Positions 185 to 13,579 of a stretch of 38,127 nt of DNA are shown here, in pieces. Location of the stretch: the IMG/VR virus record IMGVR_UViG_3300044798_000141, positions 1 to 38,127 of that record. One strand, written 5' to 3'. The stretch's first letter is position 1. Each line of letters opens with the position of its first letter. Made by a program: the position numbers and the translations under genes. The notes under the pieces are model-generated. The model saw only the letters and a program-made list of their open reading frames with translations. It was not told where the DNA came from and did not search any database. This stretch comes from a virus.

Positions 185-197
185 TCGGACTGGGGGA
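185..197 (+). repeat. Start-associated repeat copy (divergent)
   Basis: CGGACTGGGG at 186-195 matches ten contiguous bases of the 13-bp repeat GCGGACTGGGGAG; the first base differs and one extra G is present. It lies 13 bp before the ATG at 211, with a separate GAGAGG ribosome binding site between. Confidence 0.6.
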
Positions 198-1513: not shown

Positions 1514-1526
1514 GCGGGCTGGGGAG
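1514..1526 (+). repeat. Start-associated repeat copy (A5G variant)
   Basis: GCGGGCTGGGGAG differs from the consensus only at position 5 (A to G) and ends 6 bp before ATG 1533, so it supplies the ribosome binding site. The change would keep pairing with the candidate antisense RNA as G-U. Confidence 0.75.
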
Positions 1527-2934: not shown

Positions 2935-2947
2935 GCGGATTGGGGAG
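2935..2947 (+). repeat. Start-associated repeat copy (C6T variant)
   Basis: GCGGATTGGGGAG differs from the consensus only at position 6 (C to T), again compatible with G-U pairing to the candidate antisense RNA. It ends 7 bp before ATG 2955 and forms the ribosome binding site. Confidence 0.75.
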
Positions 2948-2954
2948 GAAACAC

Positions 2955-3227
2955 ATGAACGGCTGGATTATATTCATCGGGCTGATTATCGCTGCTTTTT
3001 GCGGGGCACTGATCGAACACAAGAGACTCCAGGAGAACCACGAGTTCAGAATGAATCACTTGCACACTTGCTACCTGGAACAGATCAAACGGAACCTCAA
3101 GCTCACTGAAACGCTTGCTGCGGAACACGCCGAGCCGATTGATGTTATCCTTGACCGGCTGTTGGAAGATTGCCCGGATGAGAGTCAGCTCAAGACATTC
3201 GCCGCCGGGCAGGATCCAAGGGACTGA
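2955..3227 (+). CDS. Small membrane-anchored protein (90 aa)
   Basis: Start at ATG 2955, 7 bp after the start-associated repeat. Residues 3-20 (GWIIFIGLIIAAFCGALI) form a membrane anchor; the rest is a charged, helical cytoplasmic tail with His-rich stretch HEFRMNHLH. No family recognised. The upstream in-frame ATG at 2940 falls inside the repeat and is not favoured. The stop lies one base before the GTG start of the next gene. Confidence 0.6.
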   Translation: MNGWIIFIGLIIAAFCGALIEHKRLQENHEFRMNHLHTCYLEQIKRNLKLTETLAAEHAEPIDVILDRLLEDCPDESQLKTFAAGQDPRD

Positions 3228-4950: not shown

Positions 4951-5816
4951 ACCGCACATCGATCGACTGGGCGCAGTACAGCTGGAATCCTGTAACCGGT
5001 TGTCAGCATGATTGTGACTACTGCTACGCCCGGAGAATCGCTGCTCGGTTCGGTGCTGAAACGTATTACTTTGATGGTGCATATCCCGACCGACCGCATC
5101 TGCACTATATTCGGCTCGACGTCGAGGAAGAGTTCATTGATCTGAACTTCAAGGACCGGAACGGCTACCCGATGGAGCTCGGTAATCTCGAATGTCGTTC
5201 GCTCTATCCGTTCAACTTCGAGCCGACGTTCCACGAATACCGCCTGTCTGAGCCACAGTGGGTCAAGAAGCCTTCTCGGGTGTTTGTTGGTAGCATGGGC
5301 GATACGTTCGGCTCCTGGGTACCGGATGAATGGATCGCGAAGGTCTGCGAGGCGTGTCACAAGGCCCCGCAGCATACTTACCTGTTTCTTACAAAGAATC
5401 CGATGCGGTATCGGTGCTTGGTTCCCGTCTTCGACAAGTACCTTCCTCCGTCCCTGAAATGGGGGGCACGGCCGAACTGGTGGCTCGGTGCTACCTTTGA
5501 CACGGCAGCCAATACGTCGACGTTCTGTCGCCACCTCGGTGAGATTAAGGCGCGCGGCTACCATACTTGGGCGTCAGCAGAACCCCTGCTCGAGGATATT
5601 TCCCCGGTTATAGACTGGGCAGCGATCGACTGGCTTGTGATCGGTGCCATGACGGGACCGGGGGCGAAGAATCACCAGCCAAAGCGCGACTGGGTCGAGG
5701 CACTTGTGCAAGGGGCGAGAGAACGTAAGATCCCGGTGTTCATGAAGAAGAACCTCGCAGCAGTATGGAATGCACCATTGATTCAGGAACTACCGCAAGA
5801 CGCTAAGACGTCATGA
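4947..5816 (+). CDS. Phage Gp37/Gp68 (DUF5131) family Fe-S protein
   Basis: A 289-aa member of the family found in many phages and mobile elements. The N-terminus has WNPVTGCQHDCDYCYARR with C19-x3-C23-x2-C26, the cysteine triad of radical-SAM-like Fe-S proteins, followed by a family-typical middle (VFVGSMGDTFG) and end (WLVIGAMTGPGA, VFMKKNL). The substrate of this family is unknown to me. It is the last gene of the coupled operon that starts at 1533; its stop lies in the first arm of a large hairpin (5811-5864). Confidence 0.85.
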   Translation: MNRTSIDWAQYSWNPVTGCQHDCDYCYARRIAARFGAETYYFDGAYPDRPHLHYIRLDVEEEFIDLNFKDRNGYPMELGNLECRSLYPFNFEPTFHEYRLSEPQWVKKPSRVFVGSMGDTFGSWVPDEWIAKVCEACHKAPQHTYLFLTKNPMRYRCLVPVFDKYLPPSLKWGARPNWWLGATFDTAANTSTFCRHLGEIKARGYHTWASAEPLLEDISPVIDWAAIDWLVIGAMTGPGAKNHQPKRDWVEALVQGARERKIPVFMKKNLAAVWNAPLIQELPQDAKTS

Positions 5817-5864
5817 CAGCAAAACAGCAAGTAGCCATGACGGGATATTGCTATGCTGTCATGA
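5811..5864 (+). terminator. Large hairpin at the end of the first operon
   Basis: TCATGACAGCA (5811-5821) pairs perfectly with TGCTGTCATGA (5854-5864), with an inner AGCAA/TTGCT pair (5826-5830 and 5848-5852). The stop codon of the upstream gene is in the left arm. There is no T-run after it, so it may be a factor-dependent terminator, an mRNA 3'-end protector or a binding site. Confidence 0.5.
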
Positions 5865-5876
5865 GGGGGAAAGCGC

Positions 5877-5905
5877 TTGACAAATGGGGTAATCGTTTGC
5901 AGAAT
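5877..5905 (+). promoter_or_regulatory. Promoter P1, in front of the candidate small RNA
   Basis: TTGACA (5877-5882) and CAGAAT (5900-5905), 17-bp spacer. Expected start about 5912, at the base of the hairpin that carries the antisense sequence. The same unusual -10 and spacing recur in P2 at 5974-6002. Confidence 0.55.
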
Positions 5906-5911
5906 AATGGC

Positions 5912-5955
5912 CGCCACCCCATCCTGGGCTCCCCAGTCCGCATGGGGTGGTTATG
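5912..5955 (+). ncRNA. Candidate small antisense RNA targeting the start-associated repeats
   Basis: A perfect 9-bp stem, CCACCCCAT (5914-5922) with ATGGGGTGG (5942-5950), displays a 19-base loop whose last 13 bases, CTCCCCAGTCCGC (5929-5941), are the exact reverse complement of the repeat found at the ribosome binding sites of several genes here. P1 would start the transcript right at the stem. The 3' end is uncertain: TTATGTCTT follows, a weak terminator tail. Pairing would cover Shine-Dalgarno sequences and so lower translation. Existence and action are inferred; a DNA-level site is the main alternative. Confidence 0.45.
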
Positions 5956-5960
5956 TCTTG

Positions 5961-5973
5961 GTAGACTGGGGAC
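5961..5973 (+). repeat. Degenerate start-associated repeat next to P2
   Basis: GTAGACTGGGGAC matches 10 of 13 bases. GACTGGGGA (5964-5972) can pair with TCCCCAGTC (5930-5938) in the loop of the preceding hairpin, so it could hide the antisense sequence in cis. It touches the -35 of P2. Confidence 0.5.
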
Positions 5974-6002
5974 TTGACATGGGCTTGATAGCAGTACAGA
6001 AT
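5974..6002 (+). promoter_or_regulatory. Promoter P2 upstream of the HNH/replication genes
   Basis: TTGACA (5974-5979) and CAGAAT (5997-6002) with 17-bp spacing, the same design as P1. A second possible -10, TACAAT, lies at 6007-6012 but is too far from this -35. Likely drives 6114 onward. Confidence 0.5.
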
Positions 6003-6017
6003 CGAGTACAATATGCG

Positions 6018-6076
6018 TGGTGGCCTAGATGAGGCTCATGACCCGATCGAAGCCGGACCTATCCCCGGGGCCACCA
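6018..6076 (+). ncRNA. Structured leader before the HNH gene
   Basis: TGGTGGCC (6018-6025) pairs perfectly with GGCCACCA (6069-6076) around a 43-base interior that has GC-rich segments able to pair further. It lies at the expected 5' end of the P2 transcript. It does not fold as a tRNA (no proper T-arm) and I do not recognise a known RNA family. Confidence 0.4.
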
Positions 6077-6113
6077 TCATCAAATTGGACAGGAAAGGAT
6101 AGGTGAAAGACAA

Positions 6114-6674
6114 ATGCCATATAAAAATCCTGAAGACGCTAGGGCGCGCCAGCAACGATACAATGAAGCAAATCGCGAAAACAAACGACAATATGCGCGT
6201 TGGTATTATGGCGAACATAGAGAACGGTTGCTGGAAGAGGACCATATAGCCTATGTTGCAGACCCCGAGAAACGGCTGACTGCCTCTAGGGAGTATGGCA
6301 AGGCTCACCCCAAAGAACGATTACAGAAGTTTCTCAAATGGTTGAAGACCCCCAACGGTATAGCGTACAACCGCGCTCGAAAGCACAGGGGACGGACAAC
6401 CGGGAAACTTAACATACTGGCTTTTTATATGGGGTGTGCCGAACTTGGTTGGCATTGTCAGATGTGTGGCAAGGAACTAACAAAAGAGACTGTCACCATT
6501 GACCATATCCTTCCCGTCAGTAAGGGCGGAACAAACACTATAGAAAATTTACAACCGCTTTGTAGAAGCTGTAACGGAAAAAAGGGCAATCGCTCCATGG
6601 CAGTAATGGTTGGTCCCGAGATAGAACGTCTGGACACTGGCAAGAACATGAAACAGGCGGTGATCCATGTCTAG
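6114..6674 (+). CDS. HNH endonuclease, free-standing homing type
   Basis: A 186-aa protein. The HNH domain occupies residues 115-160: CQMC (115-118), the catalytic DH at 130-131 in TIDHILPVSKGG, N145, and CRSCN (150-154), so both zinc knuckles are present. Residues 1-70 are basic with short repeats (RENKRQYARWYYGEHRERL) typical of phage homing HNH enzymes. The gene is visibly more A+T-rich than its neighbours, which suggests recent transfer. ATG 6114 follows GGAAAGGATAGG. Its end overlaps the next gene by 8 bp. The flanking genes are intact, so no intron is implied. Confidence 0.85.
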   Translation: MPYKNPEDARARQQRYNEANRENKRQYARWYYGEHRERLLEEDHIAYVADPEKRLTASREYGKAHPKERLQKFLKWLKTPNGIAYNRARKHRGRTTGKLNILAFYMGCAELGWHCQMCGKELTKETVTIDHILPVSKGGTNTIENLQPLCRSCNGKKGNRSMAVMVGPEIERLDTGKNMKQAVIHV

Positions 6675-7203: not shown

Positions 7204-7216
7204 ACGGACTGGGGAG
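7204..7216 (+). repeat. Start-associated repeat copy before the antirepressor
   Basis: ACGGACTGGGGAG, identical to the consensus except for the first base; it ends 7 bp before ATG 7224 and gives the ribosome binding site GGGGAGG. Confidence 0.8.
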
Positions 7217-7223
7217 GTCTACA

Positions 7224-7949
7224 ATGGCAAACGAACTGCAAGTGTTTCAGTACGAGGCACAGCAAGTAAGGACCGTCAACAAGGAAGACGAACCGTGGTT
7301 CATAGCAAGAGACGTCTGTGAAGTCTTGGCAATCGCGAACACATCGCAAGCGCTGGCACGGCTGCCGGACGTCATGAAGGGTCTCAGTACTGTGGATACC
7401 CCTGGTGGAAAGCAGACGGTGACTGTCATTACAGAAGCTGGGTTGTACAAACTGGCCTTCTCGAGCCGGAAAGACGAAGCGGAGAAGTTCACCAACTGGG
7501 TAGCGTCTGATGTTTTACCTCAGATCCGCAAGACAGGTAACTATAGTCTGCCGAGCTCCAAGAACGTCTATGGTATCCTCCGCGGACTGGTCGATGACCT
7601 GGAGCGTCAGGACCAGCAGATCGCCGCCGTGAACCTGAGAGTCGACAAGGTCATCAAAGGAATCCCTGCGCTACCGGTACCTTCCAACGCGAGCGAGGAA
7701 TTTGTCACACCGAGTCAGATCGGACGCATGTTCAACCCCCGGCTTTCTGGTCAGGAAGTGAACCGACTGATGAAGTTGGCTGGTTTGCAGTACAGAGTTG
7801 GAGACGAGTACATTCCAAGTGACCGGGGCAAGATCTACGCCAAGACGTTACCCGTGCAGCTGGACAATGGTCACTGCGTTTTTCAACTGTATTGGCAGAG
7901 GAAAGTTTATAACTTTATCAGTGAAATATTGGTTGAGTGCAAGATATGA
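7224..7949 (+). CDS. Bro-N domain phage antirepressor
   Basis: A 241-aa protein. Residues 1-110 are a Bro-N/ANT domain (FQYEAQQVRTVNKEDEPWFI, ARDVCEVLAIAN, ITEAGLYKLAFSSRK), found in phage antirepressors that counter the lysogeny repressor. A coiled segment follows (125-150), then a C-terminal domain of about 80 residues (FVTPSQIGRMFNPRLSGQEV) like those of KilA-C/antirepressor proteins. Translation probably depends on the start-associated repeat, so it would be a natural target of the candidate antisense RNA and a key point for the lysis-lysogeny choice. Its stop overlaps the next start. Confidence 0.85.
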   Translation: MANELQVFQYEAQQVRTVNKEDEPWFIARDVCEVLAIANTSQALARLPDVMKGLSTVDTPGGKQTVTVITEAGLYKLAFSSRKDEAEKFTNWVASDVLPQIRKTGNYSLPSSKNVYGILRGLVDDLERQDQQIAAVNLRVDKVIKGIPALPVPSNASEEFVTPSQIGRMFNPRLSGQEVNRLMKLAGLQYRVGDEYIPSDRGKIYAKTLPVQLDNGHCVFQLYWQRKVYNFISEILVECKI

Positions 7950-8920: not shown

Positions 8921-8953
8921 GCGGACTGGGGGAGATATATGCGGACTGGGGAG
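8921..8953 (+). repeat. Tandem start-associated repeats around the start codon of the NinG-like gene
   Basis: First copy GCGGACTGGGGGAG (8921-8934, one extra G) ends 4 bp before ATG 8939. A second, perfect copy GCGGACTGGGGAG (8941-8953) begins on the last base of that ATG and is read as codons Arg-Thr-Gly-Glu. So one copy is the ribosome binding site and the other is inside the coding sequence. Confidence 0.8.
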
Positions 8954-9466
8954 CTCGTACGGCATACACCATTACGGCGCACGGCATTTAAGAAAAGCGG
9001 ACGAACCTTTAAGGCGAGCAGTCGAACGGGCAAGGTCGGCAAAGGTGTTGCAGCTGCGCAGATACGCAGGTGCGGCCTGGTAGTCTTGCGCAACGAGAAC
9101 GACAAGATCTGTGGCGACATCGTTCGCTTCCGTGACGGCATGGTCTGCCGGCATTGCCACCAGCACGTCGAAGGTTCCAATGCCGAATGGTCTCATATTT
9201 TCGTCCGGGAACTCCTTGGCACGCGCTGGAACTCTCGCAATGCCGTCTTGCTGTGTTCGGACTGTCACCACGGCTGGTGGGAGGGCTTGAGCCGGAAGGA
9301 CCAGCTCGCCTGGGCGACCACACAGCTGGGCGAAGGTGAACTGGATCAGCTTTGGGCTGAGTCCATCGCCTTGCTCCACGACCGACAGGCTTTCTACGAG
9401 TCTGAAAACGCCAGGCTCAAAGCCGAATACCGTACCCTCACCGGGCAGGCATGGAGTGCGAAATGA
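8939..9466 (+). CDS. NinG/HNH-like nuclease
   Basis: A 175-aa protein. It begins with the RTPLRRT-like basic segment (residues 9-25) seen in NinG/Rap and related phage HNH proteins. The zinc/HNH part is at 70-115: CRHC (70-73), WSHIFVRE (84-91), N98/N101, CSDCH (106-110). Lambda NinG (Rap) resolves recombination intermediates, and a similar role or a packaging-linked role is possible. Start at ATG 8939, whose second to fifth codons are a copy of the start-associated repeat. Its stop overlaps the next ATG. Confidence 0.7.
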   Translation: MRTGELVRHTPLRRTAFKKSGRTFKASSRTGKVGKGVAAAQIRRCGLVVLRNENDKICGDIVRFRDGMVCRHCHQHVEGSNAEWSHIFVRELLGTRWNSRNAVLLCSDCHHGWWEGLSRKDQLAWATTQLGEGELDQLWAESIALLHDRQAFYESENARLKAEYRTLTGQAWSAK

Positions 9467-12712: not shown

Positions 12713-13276
12713 ATGACCGGATGGCACGGATGGTCTCAGAGTCCTTTACATGTACGTGGGTTCAAGACACTTGAGAGAGGCGGCAGGATTACGGCGCTGC
12801 TTTATCAGGGAGGCAATGCACGGAATGTTGTGCGTGCTCTTCGTCGGCAGTTGCGCAAGGAAGAGCACAGCGAGTTTGTCGGCGCCGTTATCTTTGGCCT
12901 GAGCCGTCGTTTCGACCTATTGTATGAGGTTGGTGATGGTGGATTTAGAAACGGGAAGCATGTGACATTTCTTACCATCGGGCATTGGAGGCATTACAAT
13001 TCGGAACGAATCCGAGAGCGAATCGTCTTGCCCGAGGAACCGAAGAAAAGCTACCCGCATGTGTGTGTGCGTATTCCGACGGGGACGCCGAGCATCTGGC
13101 ATACTGCGAATGATCGTTACCGGGTGAGGGTTGGTGGACACTACCTTGGGACGTATGACTCGTTTCCACTGGCCATCTCTGCGAAGGCTTTGTATAGAAA
13201 GCACCATCCCGGACGTCATCCATTGCTTAGTAACGAGTCCCTCCAAGGGCTTGCTAATGCAGGGATGCGCTCCTAG
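12713..13276 (+). CDS. Hypothetical protein with C-terminal AP2-like DNA-binding domain
   Basis: A 187-aa protein starting at ATG 12713, four bases after GGAGG; the in-frame ATG at 12701 lies before the ribosome binding site. The last 65 residues (RYRVRVGGHYLGTYDSF, then SAKALYRKHHPGRHP) match the AP2-type three-stranded DNA-binding fold often joined to phage HNH enzymes, but no HNH core is visible here. The first 110 residues are basic and unassigned. It may be a nuclease relic or a stand-alone DNA-binding protein next to the packaging genes. Confidence 0.5.
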   Translation: MTGWHGWSQSPLHVRGFKTLERGGRITALLYQGGNARNVVRALRRQLRKEEHSEFVGAVIFGLSRRFDLLYEVGDGGFRNGKHVTFLTIGHWRHYNSERIRERIVLPEEPKKSYPHVCVRIPTGTPSIWHTANDRYRVRVGGHYLGTYDSFPLAISAKALYRKHHPGRHPLLSNESLQGLANAGMRS

Positions 13277-13279
13277 ACT
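13251..13279 (+). promoter_or_regulatory. Weak candidate promoter before the structured block
   Basis: TTGCTA (13251-13256) and TAGACT (13274-13279), 17-bp spacer, inside the end of the AP2-like gene. It would start transcripts near 13286, just before the perfect repeat at 13295. Confidence 0.3.
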
Positions 13280-13294
13280 ATAGATGCAAGAATT

Positions 13295-13307
13295 GCGGAC
13301 TGGGGAG
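13295..13307 (+). repeat. Perfect start-associated repeat copy
   Basis: GCGGACTGGGGAG, ending 5 bp before ATG 13313. The downstream ORF is short and contains a terminator-like hairpin. Confidence 0.85.
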
Positions 13308-13312
13308 TCTAG

Positions 13313-13459
13313 ATGTTGAACGAGTATGCCGAGGCCTTGGAAGCGCAATATGCCGTGTTGTTCCCGGTGGCTTGTCATACTCCCCGAAGCAGATCCCCCA
13401 TGTACCACGGTCAGGCCCGCTGTTTGCCCGTGAACGCATGGGGGATTTTGTATGTCTAG
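13313..13459 (+). CDS. Possible small protein (48 aa), doubtful
   Basis: ATG 13313 has the start-associated repeat as its ribosome binding site and opens a 48-codon frame ending at TAG 13457-13459. The frame is kept because the repeat marks true gene starts elsewhere in the window. Against it, its second half is covered by a strong hairpin with a short T-tail (13393-13449), and the protein has no recognisable feature apart from several Cys and Pro. It could instead be a leader peptide or a decoy RNA. Confidence 0.35.
   Translation: MLNEYAEALEAQYAVLFPVACHTPRSRSPMYHGQARCLPVNAWGILYV
13393..13449 (+). terminator. Long-stem terminator-like hairpin
   Basis: ATCCCCCATG (13393-13402) pairs perfectly with CATGGGGGAT (13437-13446), an inner CACGG/CCGTG pair (13406-13410 and 13428-13432) shortens the loop, and the right arm runs into TTTT. 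This would end a transcript of about 165 nt starting near 13286. Confidence 0.55.
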
Positions 13460-13481
13460 AAAAGCCAATCGCGATTGTTTG

Positions 13482-13537
13482 AGTGCAGACGTGTTTCCTC
13501 CTACCCGCGCAAGCGGACTCCTTTGCACGTCTGCACT
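13482..13537 (+). ncRNA. Perfect 12-bp stem with inner GNRA tetraloop hairpin
   Basis: AGTGCAGACGTG (13482-13493) pairs with CACGTCTGCACT (13526-13537). Inside it CCGC-GCAA-GCGG (13505-13516) forms a hairpin with a GCAA (GNRA) tetraloop. It lies just before the HNH and terminase genes, where cos or pac regions are often found. It could be a structured RNA, or a DNA site used in packaging. Confidence 0.45.
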
Positions 13538-13579
13538 GAGACGATCCCTCCGGCCAGTCCTCGGGGTTGAGGGCGGGTG

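Follow-up and report, generated by a model that had tools for sequence, protein, structure and literature searches.

The 38,127-nucleotide window analysed here, which is the whole IMG/VR virus record IMGVR_UViG_3300044798_000141 (positions 1 to 38,127), contains a hairpin, RNA1, whose apical part carries a seed complementary to a 13-mer, GCGGACTGGGGAG, that constitutes the Shine-Dalgarno leader of six genes, the antirepressor gene Ant included. Seed and leader tags change together among related genomes. We consider it very likely (probability of about 0.87) that RNA1 is a trans-acting antisense RNA blocking the translation of a lytic-phase gene set. The initial annotation of this stretch had proposed such a silencing RNA, and the present analysis supports that reading, while transcription, in vivo pairing and the translational block remain inferred.

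The hairpin and its tagged leaders in the window

The genes that define the setting of RNA1 are the following:
405-1154, ParA ATPase gene parA
2225-2419, gene for a small HTH_3 protein
at 6667, replication-initiation-like (rep-like) gene
7224-7949, antirepressor gene Ant (PHROG 130 anti-repressor Ant, 1.5e-50)

The window also encodes DUF5131, HNH genes and terminase genes, and no tRNA or tmRNA was found in it. The presence of ParA suggests, by inference, a plasmid prophage. No close relative of the window was found in the phage and plasmid collections searched, and genome contigs yielded solely distant homologues of the rep-like gene, on two MAG contigs. As a 9-mer leader-repeat scan of these two contigs did not find the system, the host remains unidentified. 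In the homologues of the rep-like gene from two related viral contigs (L009:11256-11783 and L028:55-576), ACG replaces the ATG of the window, with no clear in-frame start upstream of it.

The copies of the motif associated with genes of the window are:
185-197, plus strand, weaker target leader of the 65-aa ORF 211-408 upstream of parA (11 bases pair)
1514-1526, plus strand, target leader of ORF 1533-1709 (58 aa; A to G, G-U pair kept)
2935-2947, plus strand, target leader of ORF 2955-3227 (90 aa; C to T, G-U pair kept)
7204-7216, plus strand, target leader of Ant 7224-7949 (A at base 1)
8921-8933, plus strand, target leader of the HNH/NinG-like gene 8939-9466 (GCGGACTGGGGGA, GGGGGA)
8941-8953, plus strand, second and exact motif copy within the first codons of gene 8939
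13295-13307, plus strand, target leader of ORF 13313-13459 (48 aa), ahead of the HNH/terminase genes

At up to two mismatches the motif has 10 matches in the window against 1.5 expected, a count of 10 being reached in none of 100 window shuffles, and its sole minus-strand copy is the hairpin loop (5929-5941). The initial annotation had placed the repeat at the ribosome-binding sites of five genes, two of them with variant copies, which needed small corrections: only the copy at 13295 is an exact 13-mer among the ribosome-binding-site copies, and for gene 8939 the ribosome-binding-site copy lies at 8921, the exact copy at 8941 being intragenic. Its claims of two variants tolerated through G-U pairing (at the 1514 and 2935 copies) and of a looser copy before the ORF at 211 both held. 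Duplex prediction against the leaders, which it had proposed as a check, gave the best scores to the six genes that it had named. These occupy ranks 1-6 among 133 plus-strand ORFs by predicted duplex energy with the loop, from -34.5 to -22.8 kcal/mol, the next ORF scoring -21.9 kcal/mol. Complementarity between loop and leaders is shown by these results; pairing in vivo is inferred.

The elements of the hairpin locus are:
5877-5905, plus strand, promoter P1 of RNA1 (TTGACA 5877-5882, 17-bp spacer, CAGAAT 5900-5905)
5912-5952, plus strand, antisense RNA hairpin RNA1, resting on its fold, the position of P1 and stem covariation
5929-5941, plus strand, antisense seed CTCCCCAGTCCGC in the apical part of the hairpin, with a counterpart in seven other genomes

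The hairpin at 5914-5950 and the complementarity of its loop to the ribosome-binding-site repeat, both previously claimed, were confirmed with small corrections. The structure has a 9-bp outer stem, CCACCCCAT/ATGGGGTGG, and folds at -24.9 kcal/mol (z of -3.6 against dinucleotide shuffles), with the loop partly paired in the predicted fold. The positions of the P1 elements place the predicted start at about 5912, at the base of the stem, so that the claim that P1 starts the RNA at the stem holds as a prediction. As no intrinsic terminator was found for RNA1, its length and 3′ end are undetermined. Its transcription rests on the promoter match only and is inferred from sequence alone, there being no transcript or expression data.

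Seed and tag covariation in related genomes

Relatives were drawn from IMG/VR. An exact pattern search for the hairpin in viral contigs returned only L009 and one unrelated chance match, L027, which was rejected as a relative; those that covary were found via protein queries only. Three further contigs (L007, L040 and L042), related through individual genes and lacking the system, were set aside. Eight genomes carry the hairpin (the window, L009, L029, L008, L051, L052, L062 and L073) and together present six seed/target types: GCGGACTGGGGAG, GCAGACTTGGGG, GCAGACTAGGGAG, AAYCGATCTGGGAG, CAAYCGATCTAGGAGGATC and GAGACCTTGGAG. The arrangement of promoter, hairpin and second promoter recurs in the relatives, whose loops and leaders are:
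L009, seed same as in the window, stem different, same genes tagged at their leaders
L029, loop CCCCAAGTCTGC, leaders GCAGACTTGGGG, same layout as the window
L008, loop CTCCCAGATCGGTT, leaders AATCGATCTGGGAG
L051 and L052, loop GATCCTCCTAGATCGGTTG, leaders CAAYCGATCTRGGAGG, mostly followed by ATC
L062, loop CTCCCTAGTCTGC, leaders RCAGACTAGGGRG
L073, loop ACTCCAAGGTCTC, leaders GAGACCTTGGAG

Covariation of seed and repeats, another check put forward in the initial annotation, is shown: loop and leader repeats change together in the eight hairpin contigs. The antisense copy is single in each of these genomes and invariably lies in the hairpin loop, and the sense copies are all on the coding strand. 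Ant is tagged in 8/8 genomes with RNA1, and its leader pairs with the loop of its own genome in each. Duplex energies of the loops against the Ant leaders formed a block-diagonal pattern, in which each leader paired best, or close to best, with its own loop and loops of unrelated type failed. The seed types are not all orthogonal, since the L008 leader is also fitted by L051-type loops, window-type leaders pair fairly well with the L062 loop, and the loops of the window and L009 are interchangeable. Within each genome, nearly all tagged leaders rank lowest in duplex energy when compared with every ORF. A true internal mismatch occurs in two L029 targets, and the HNH gene of L062 bears a foreign, window-type tag, as might be expected if tag adaptation lags behind the recombination of modules. 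L062 also has two antirepressor genes (48-816 and 5554-6305), the tags of which differ in seed type, and its contig contains RNA1 of the second type only.

The promoter is likewise conserved, with TTGACA and the 17-bp spacer kept in the window, L009 and L029, TTGACA with a 16-17 bp spacer and a weaker -10 in L008, L051 and L052, and TTGACA again upstream of the L062 and L073 hairpins. All eight hairpins are stabler than their shuffles, with z from -1.8 to -4.4 (for L073 the control was a mononucleotide shuffle). Compensated changes were observed in the lower stem at pair 4 (AU/CG/GU/GC), pair 5 (CG/UA/GC) and pair 6 (CG/GC), three cells of the stem-pair table being A-C mismatches. This table excludes L073, and its pairs were set by hand; MAFFT gave no workable alignment of the hairpins across different seed types. 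As the stem of L051 and L052 is common by descent, independent evidence for the stem comes mainly from the window, L009, L029, L062 and L008.

Orthologous targets retain the tag across seed types. The leader of the 65-aa ORF has an ortholog that covaries in L029 (4948, whole-contig numbering); ORF 1533-1709 has orthologous targets in L009 and L029, ORF 2955-3227 in L009, and ORF 13313-13459 in L009, L028, L029 and L062. Kinds of target recorded among the window, L009 and L029 are the 65-aa ORF, the 58- and 90-aa ORFs, the HNH/NinG-like gene and the small ORF preceding the terminase genes, and the motif copy inside gene 8939 is also present in L009 and L028 and absent from L029. Targets elsewhere include an ERF recombinase and a VRR-NUC-like nuclease in L008 and, in L051, a Gp3-like recombination directionality factor. 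Those targets that can be named are lytic-phase or operon-leading genes. Around the pre-terminase ORF, the stretch 13250-13560 ahead of the HNH/terminase genes is 96% identical to L009, above other aligned stretches, and contains the inverted repeat CCCCCATG/CATGGGGG, possibly a cos site or another RNA.

These comparisons bear on the explanation that the tag is merely a ribosome-binding site preferred by the phage and copied between genes, matching the hairpin by chance. In its favor, the tag has a G-rich core resembling a Shine-Dalgarno sequence, and gene modules move between these phages, as with the HNH gene of L062. Against it, a single antisense match of 12-19 nt at the same locus in eight genomes and six types lies far beyond chance, window shuffles give 1.5 motif matches at two mismatches, and we regard this explanation as all but excluded.

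Across ten contigs, 42 of the 47 sense copies of the tag cores sit in the leader before an ORF, and most cores end 5-9 nt before the start codon, a placement that identifies the tag as the Shine-Dalgarno region itself. Polymorphic tag positions mostly keep G-U pairing, the loop base (G or U) usually pairing with both variants. The loop base fits both in 7 of the 9 informative internal differences (p of 0.008 if one third is expected, 0.09 if one half), a count that is no more than suggestive and depends on how the events are counted.

A rival worth taking seriously, although unlikely, is that a repressor protein recognizes the tags as asymmetric sites on DNA, similar to stoperators, the inverted copy at 5929 being an operator between promoters and all copies covarying as the repressor changed specificity. 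An asymmetric motif, many copies mostly in one orientation and covariation have all been described for stoperators (PMC6550527), and the window encodes an HTH_3 protein that could be invoked here. However, the inverted copy is always in a hairpin loop with a compensated stem just after a promoter, the tags are the Shine-Dalgarno sequence itself at a near-fixed spacing to the start codon, and their variation tolerates G-U pairs; a DNA site needs neither hairpin, nor Shine-Dalgarno placement, nor wobble. In the absence of binding data, this rival is not excluded.

Three relatives keep the targets without the hairpin, namely L064/L065, which form one lineage, and L076. No antisense copy was found in the parts of these contigs that were read, in which four or five tags are kept, and the coding strand of L064/L065 showed no hidden antisense copy in a search that tolerated G-U pairs. 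In L076 (8402-8500), P1 and the second promoter P2 are kept, a short palindrome, GTGCCGGCAC, replaces the hairpin, and five L051-type tags remain. Because the flanking promoters remain, L076 looks like a deletion, that is, a natural loss of the antisense RNA. The initial annotation had held that conserved repeats without the loop would refute its proposal, and these contigs meet that condition in part. They may be read as hairpin loss, which is unproven; virulent variants, assembly effects or an RNA located elsewhere are also possible. L028 and L077 show tags only, their contigs beginning near the expected hairpin site. In L077 (6900-6960), three near-tandem L073-type tags, GAGACCTTGGAGG, occur within about 50 bases.

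The downstream region and the proposed mechanism

Three elements that the initial annotation had missed lie just downstream of the hairpin:
5964-5972, plus strand, sense half-copy GACTGGGGA of the motif, followed by ATG 5979 of a 17-codon ORF
5985-6012, plus strand, promoter P2 (TTGATA, 16 bp, TACAAT)
6019-6075, plus strand, second structured element RNA2, with closing stem GGTGGCC/GGCCACC

The half-copy has a counterpart at the same place in L009, L062, L008, L051, L052 and L073 and is degenerate in L029; an ATG accompanies it in L008, L051, L052 and L073. It is possibly a self-target of RNA1, which would add self-control. An alternative to P2 is formed by TTGACA at 5974 with CAGAAT at 5997, and relatives have a TTGACA promoter at the place of P2. 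The position of RNA2 is kept in relatives with a different sequence, and its function is undetermined, a leader of the downstream operon, an attenuator or a second small RNA being possible. L040 has an RNA2 element upstream of its rep-like gene without RNA1, and the RNA2 versions of L008 and L029 end in T-rich runs.

The half-copy raises a further alternative, in which RNA1 acts mainly in cis, its loop pairing with the downstream half-copy and attenuating the P1/P2 operon, with the Shine-Dalgarno motif common to the other leaders by descent or copying only. A cis half-copy does follow the hairpin in 7 of the 8 genomes (the eighth being the degenerate one of L029), and the c4 RNA of phage P1 likewise lies upstream of the operon that it controls (immI). 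Nevertheless, the fit to the seed is closer in the trans targets than in the cis copy (for example in L051, A in trans and G in cis), and orthologous trans targets have been remodelled in every seed type, which makes this alternative very unlikely.

Under the preferred reading of RNA1 as a trans-acting regulator, the prophage would make this small RNA from its own promoter, and the hairpin would present a seed of 12-19 nt to matching tags that lie on the Shine-Dalgarno sequences of multiple genes, of which the window has six. The predicted targets are the antirepressor, recombination and nuclease genes, small ORFs leading operons and the first ORF ahead of the terminase genes. Pairing of seed and tag would cover the ribosome-binding site and stop translation, so that one RNA may keep several lytic operons off and maintain lysogeny. 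RNA1 would also silence incoming phages of the same seed type, conferring immunity, whereas phages differing in seed type would escape; seed and tags would then coevolve as immunity specificities. Both the lysogeny and the immunity roles are inferred. A bolder reading, towards which we lean only slightly, is that a single small RNA constitutes the immunity system and replaces the many operators of a protein repressor, all key lytic genes sharing a ribosome-binding-site tag of 12-19 nt and seed and tags being rewritten together to give new immunity types.

Comparison with known systems

Among the closest precedents is c4 of phages P1 and P7, an antisense RNA whose loop sequences target the antirepressor mRNA around its ribosome-binding site and which underlies P1/P7 heteroimmunity (PMC12197685, PMC5320573). 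RNase P processes this RNA, which comprises three stem-loops and has two target segments, a′ and b′ (PMC5320573). In phage P1, self-control of the kind suggested above for the half-copy is added by a short ORF that lies between c4 and ant; icd is named in PMC8201110. Like c4, the RNA1 gene lies upstream of Ant and is directly followed by a short ORF. Unlike c4, RNA1 consists at each of the eight loci of a single hairpin with a single contiguous seed, and it appears to target several genes spread over the genome. No Rfam match, the C4 model included, was found in the window, L009, L029, L008, L051 or L052, nor was any found in the window at 5850-6120 at E up to 5. By Rfam model and by architecture, RNA1 is not a member of the C4 family, with the reservation that L062 and L073 were outside the Rfam scan. 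By function, the mark of the c4/sar class, a loop complementary to the ribosome-binding site of ant, is met in all eight genomes. The sar RNA of P22 is a 68/69-nt antisense RNA that blocks ant translation (PMC12197685); one target has been described for it, whereas RNA1 has many predicted targets with a copied tag.

The stoperators of Cluster A mycobacteriophages are many short asymmetric sites, mostly in one orientation, that covary between immunity types (PMC6550527), and the tags meet this description as well. Stoperators differ from them in being sites for a repressor protein on DNA. To our knowledge, stoperators with an antisense copy borne by a hairpin, or serving as the Shine-Dalgarno sequence itself at a fixed spacing, are not known. 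Two other phage-encoded RNAs are comparable: VpdS of phage VP882, which affects phage and host mRNAs in trans (PMC12197685), and STnc6030 of BTP1, an antisense RNA through which related phages are excluded (PMC12197685, PMC7067206). Unlike RNA1, VpdS is bound by Hfq and promotes replication, and STnc6030 is 786 nt long and antisense to the region that it targets; repeated ribosome-binding-site tags are described for neither in these two sources. No phage RNA with a copied ribosome-binding-site tag on many of its own genes was found in the open-access literature searched.

An antisense RNA against ant is thus known from c4 and sar, and what is likely to be new is one RNA with identically tagged targets throughout the genome. 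The six types constitute a naturally occurring set of RNA regulators that differ in specificity, and with matching tags for each seed it becomes testable how a regulator and half a dozen targets switch specificity. They also provide a comparative handle for immunity RNAs in uncultured phages, which consists in seeking the one antisense copy of a repeated leader. Whereas c4 and sar have been described with one target, the antirepressor mRNA, RNA1 appears to run a whole regulon.
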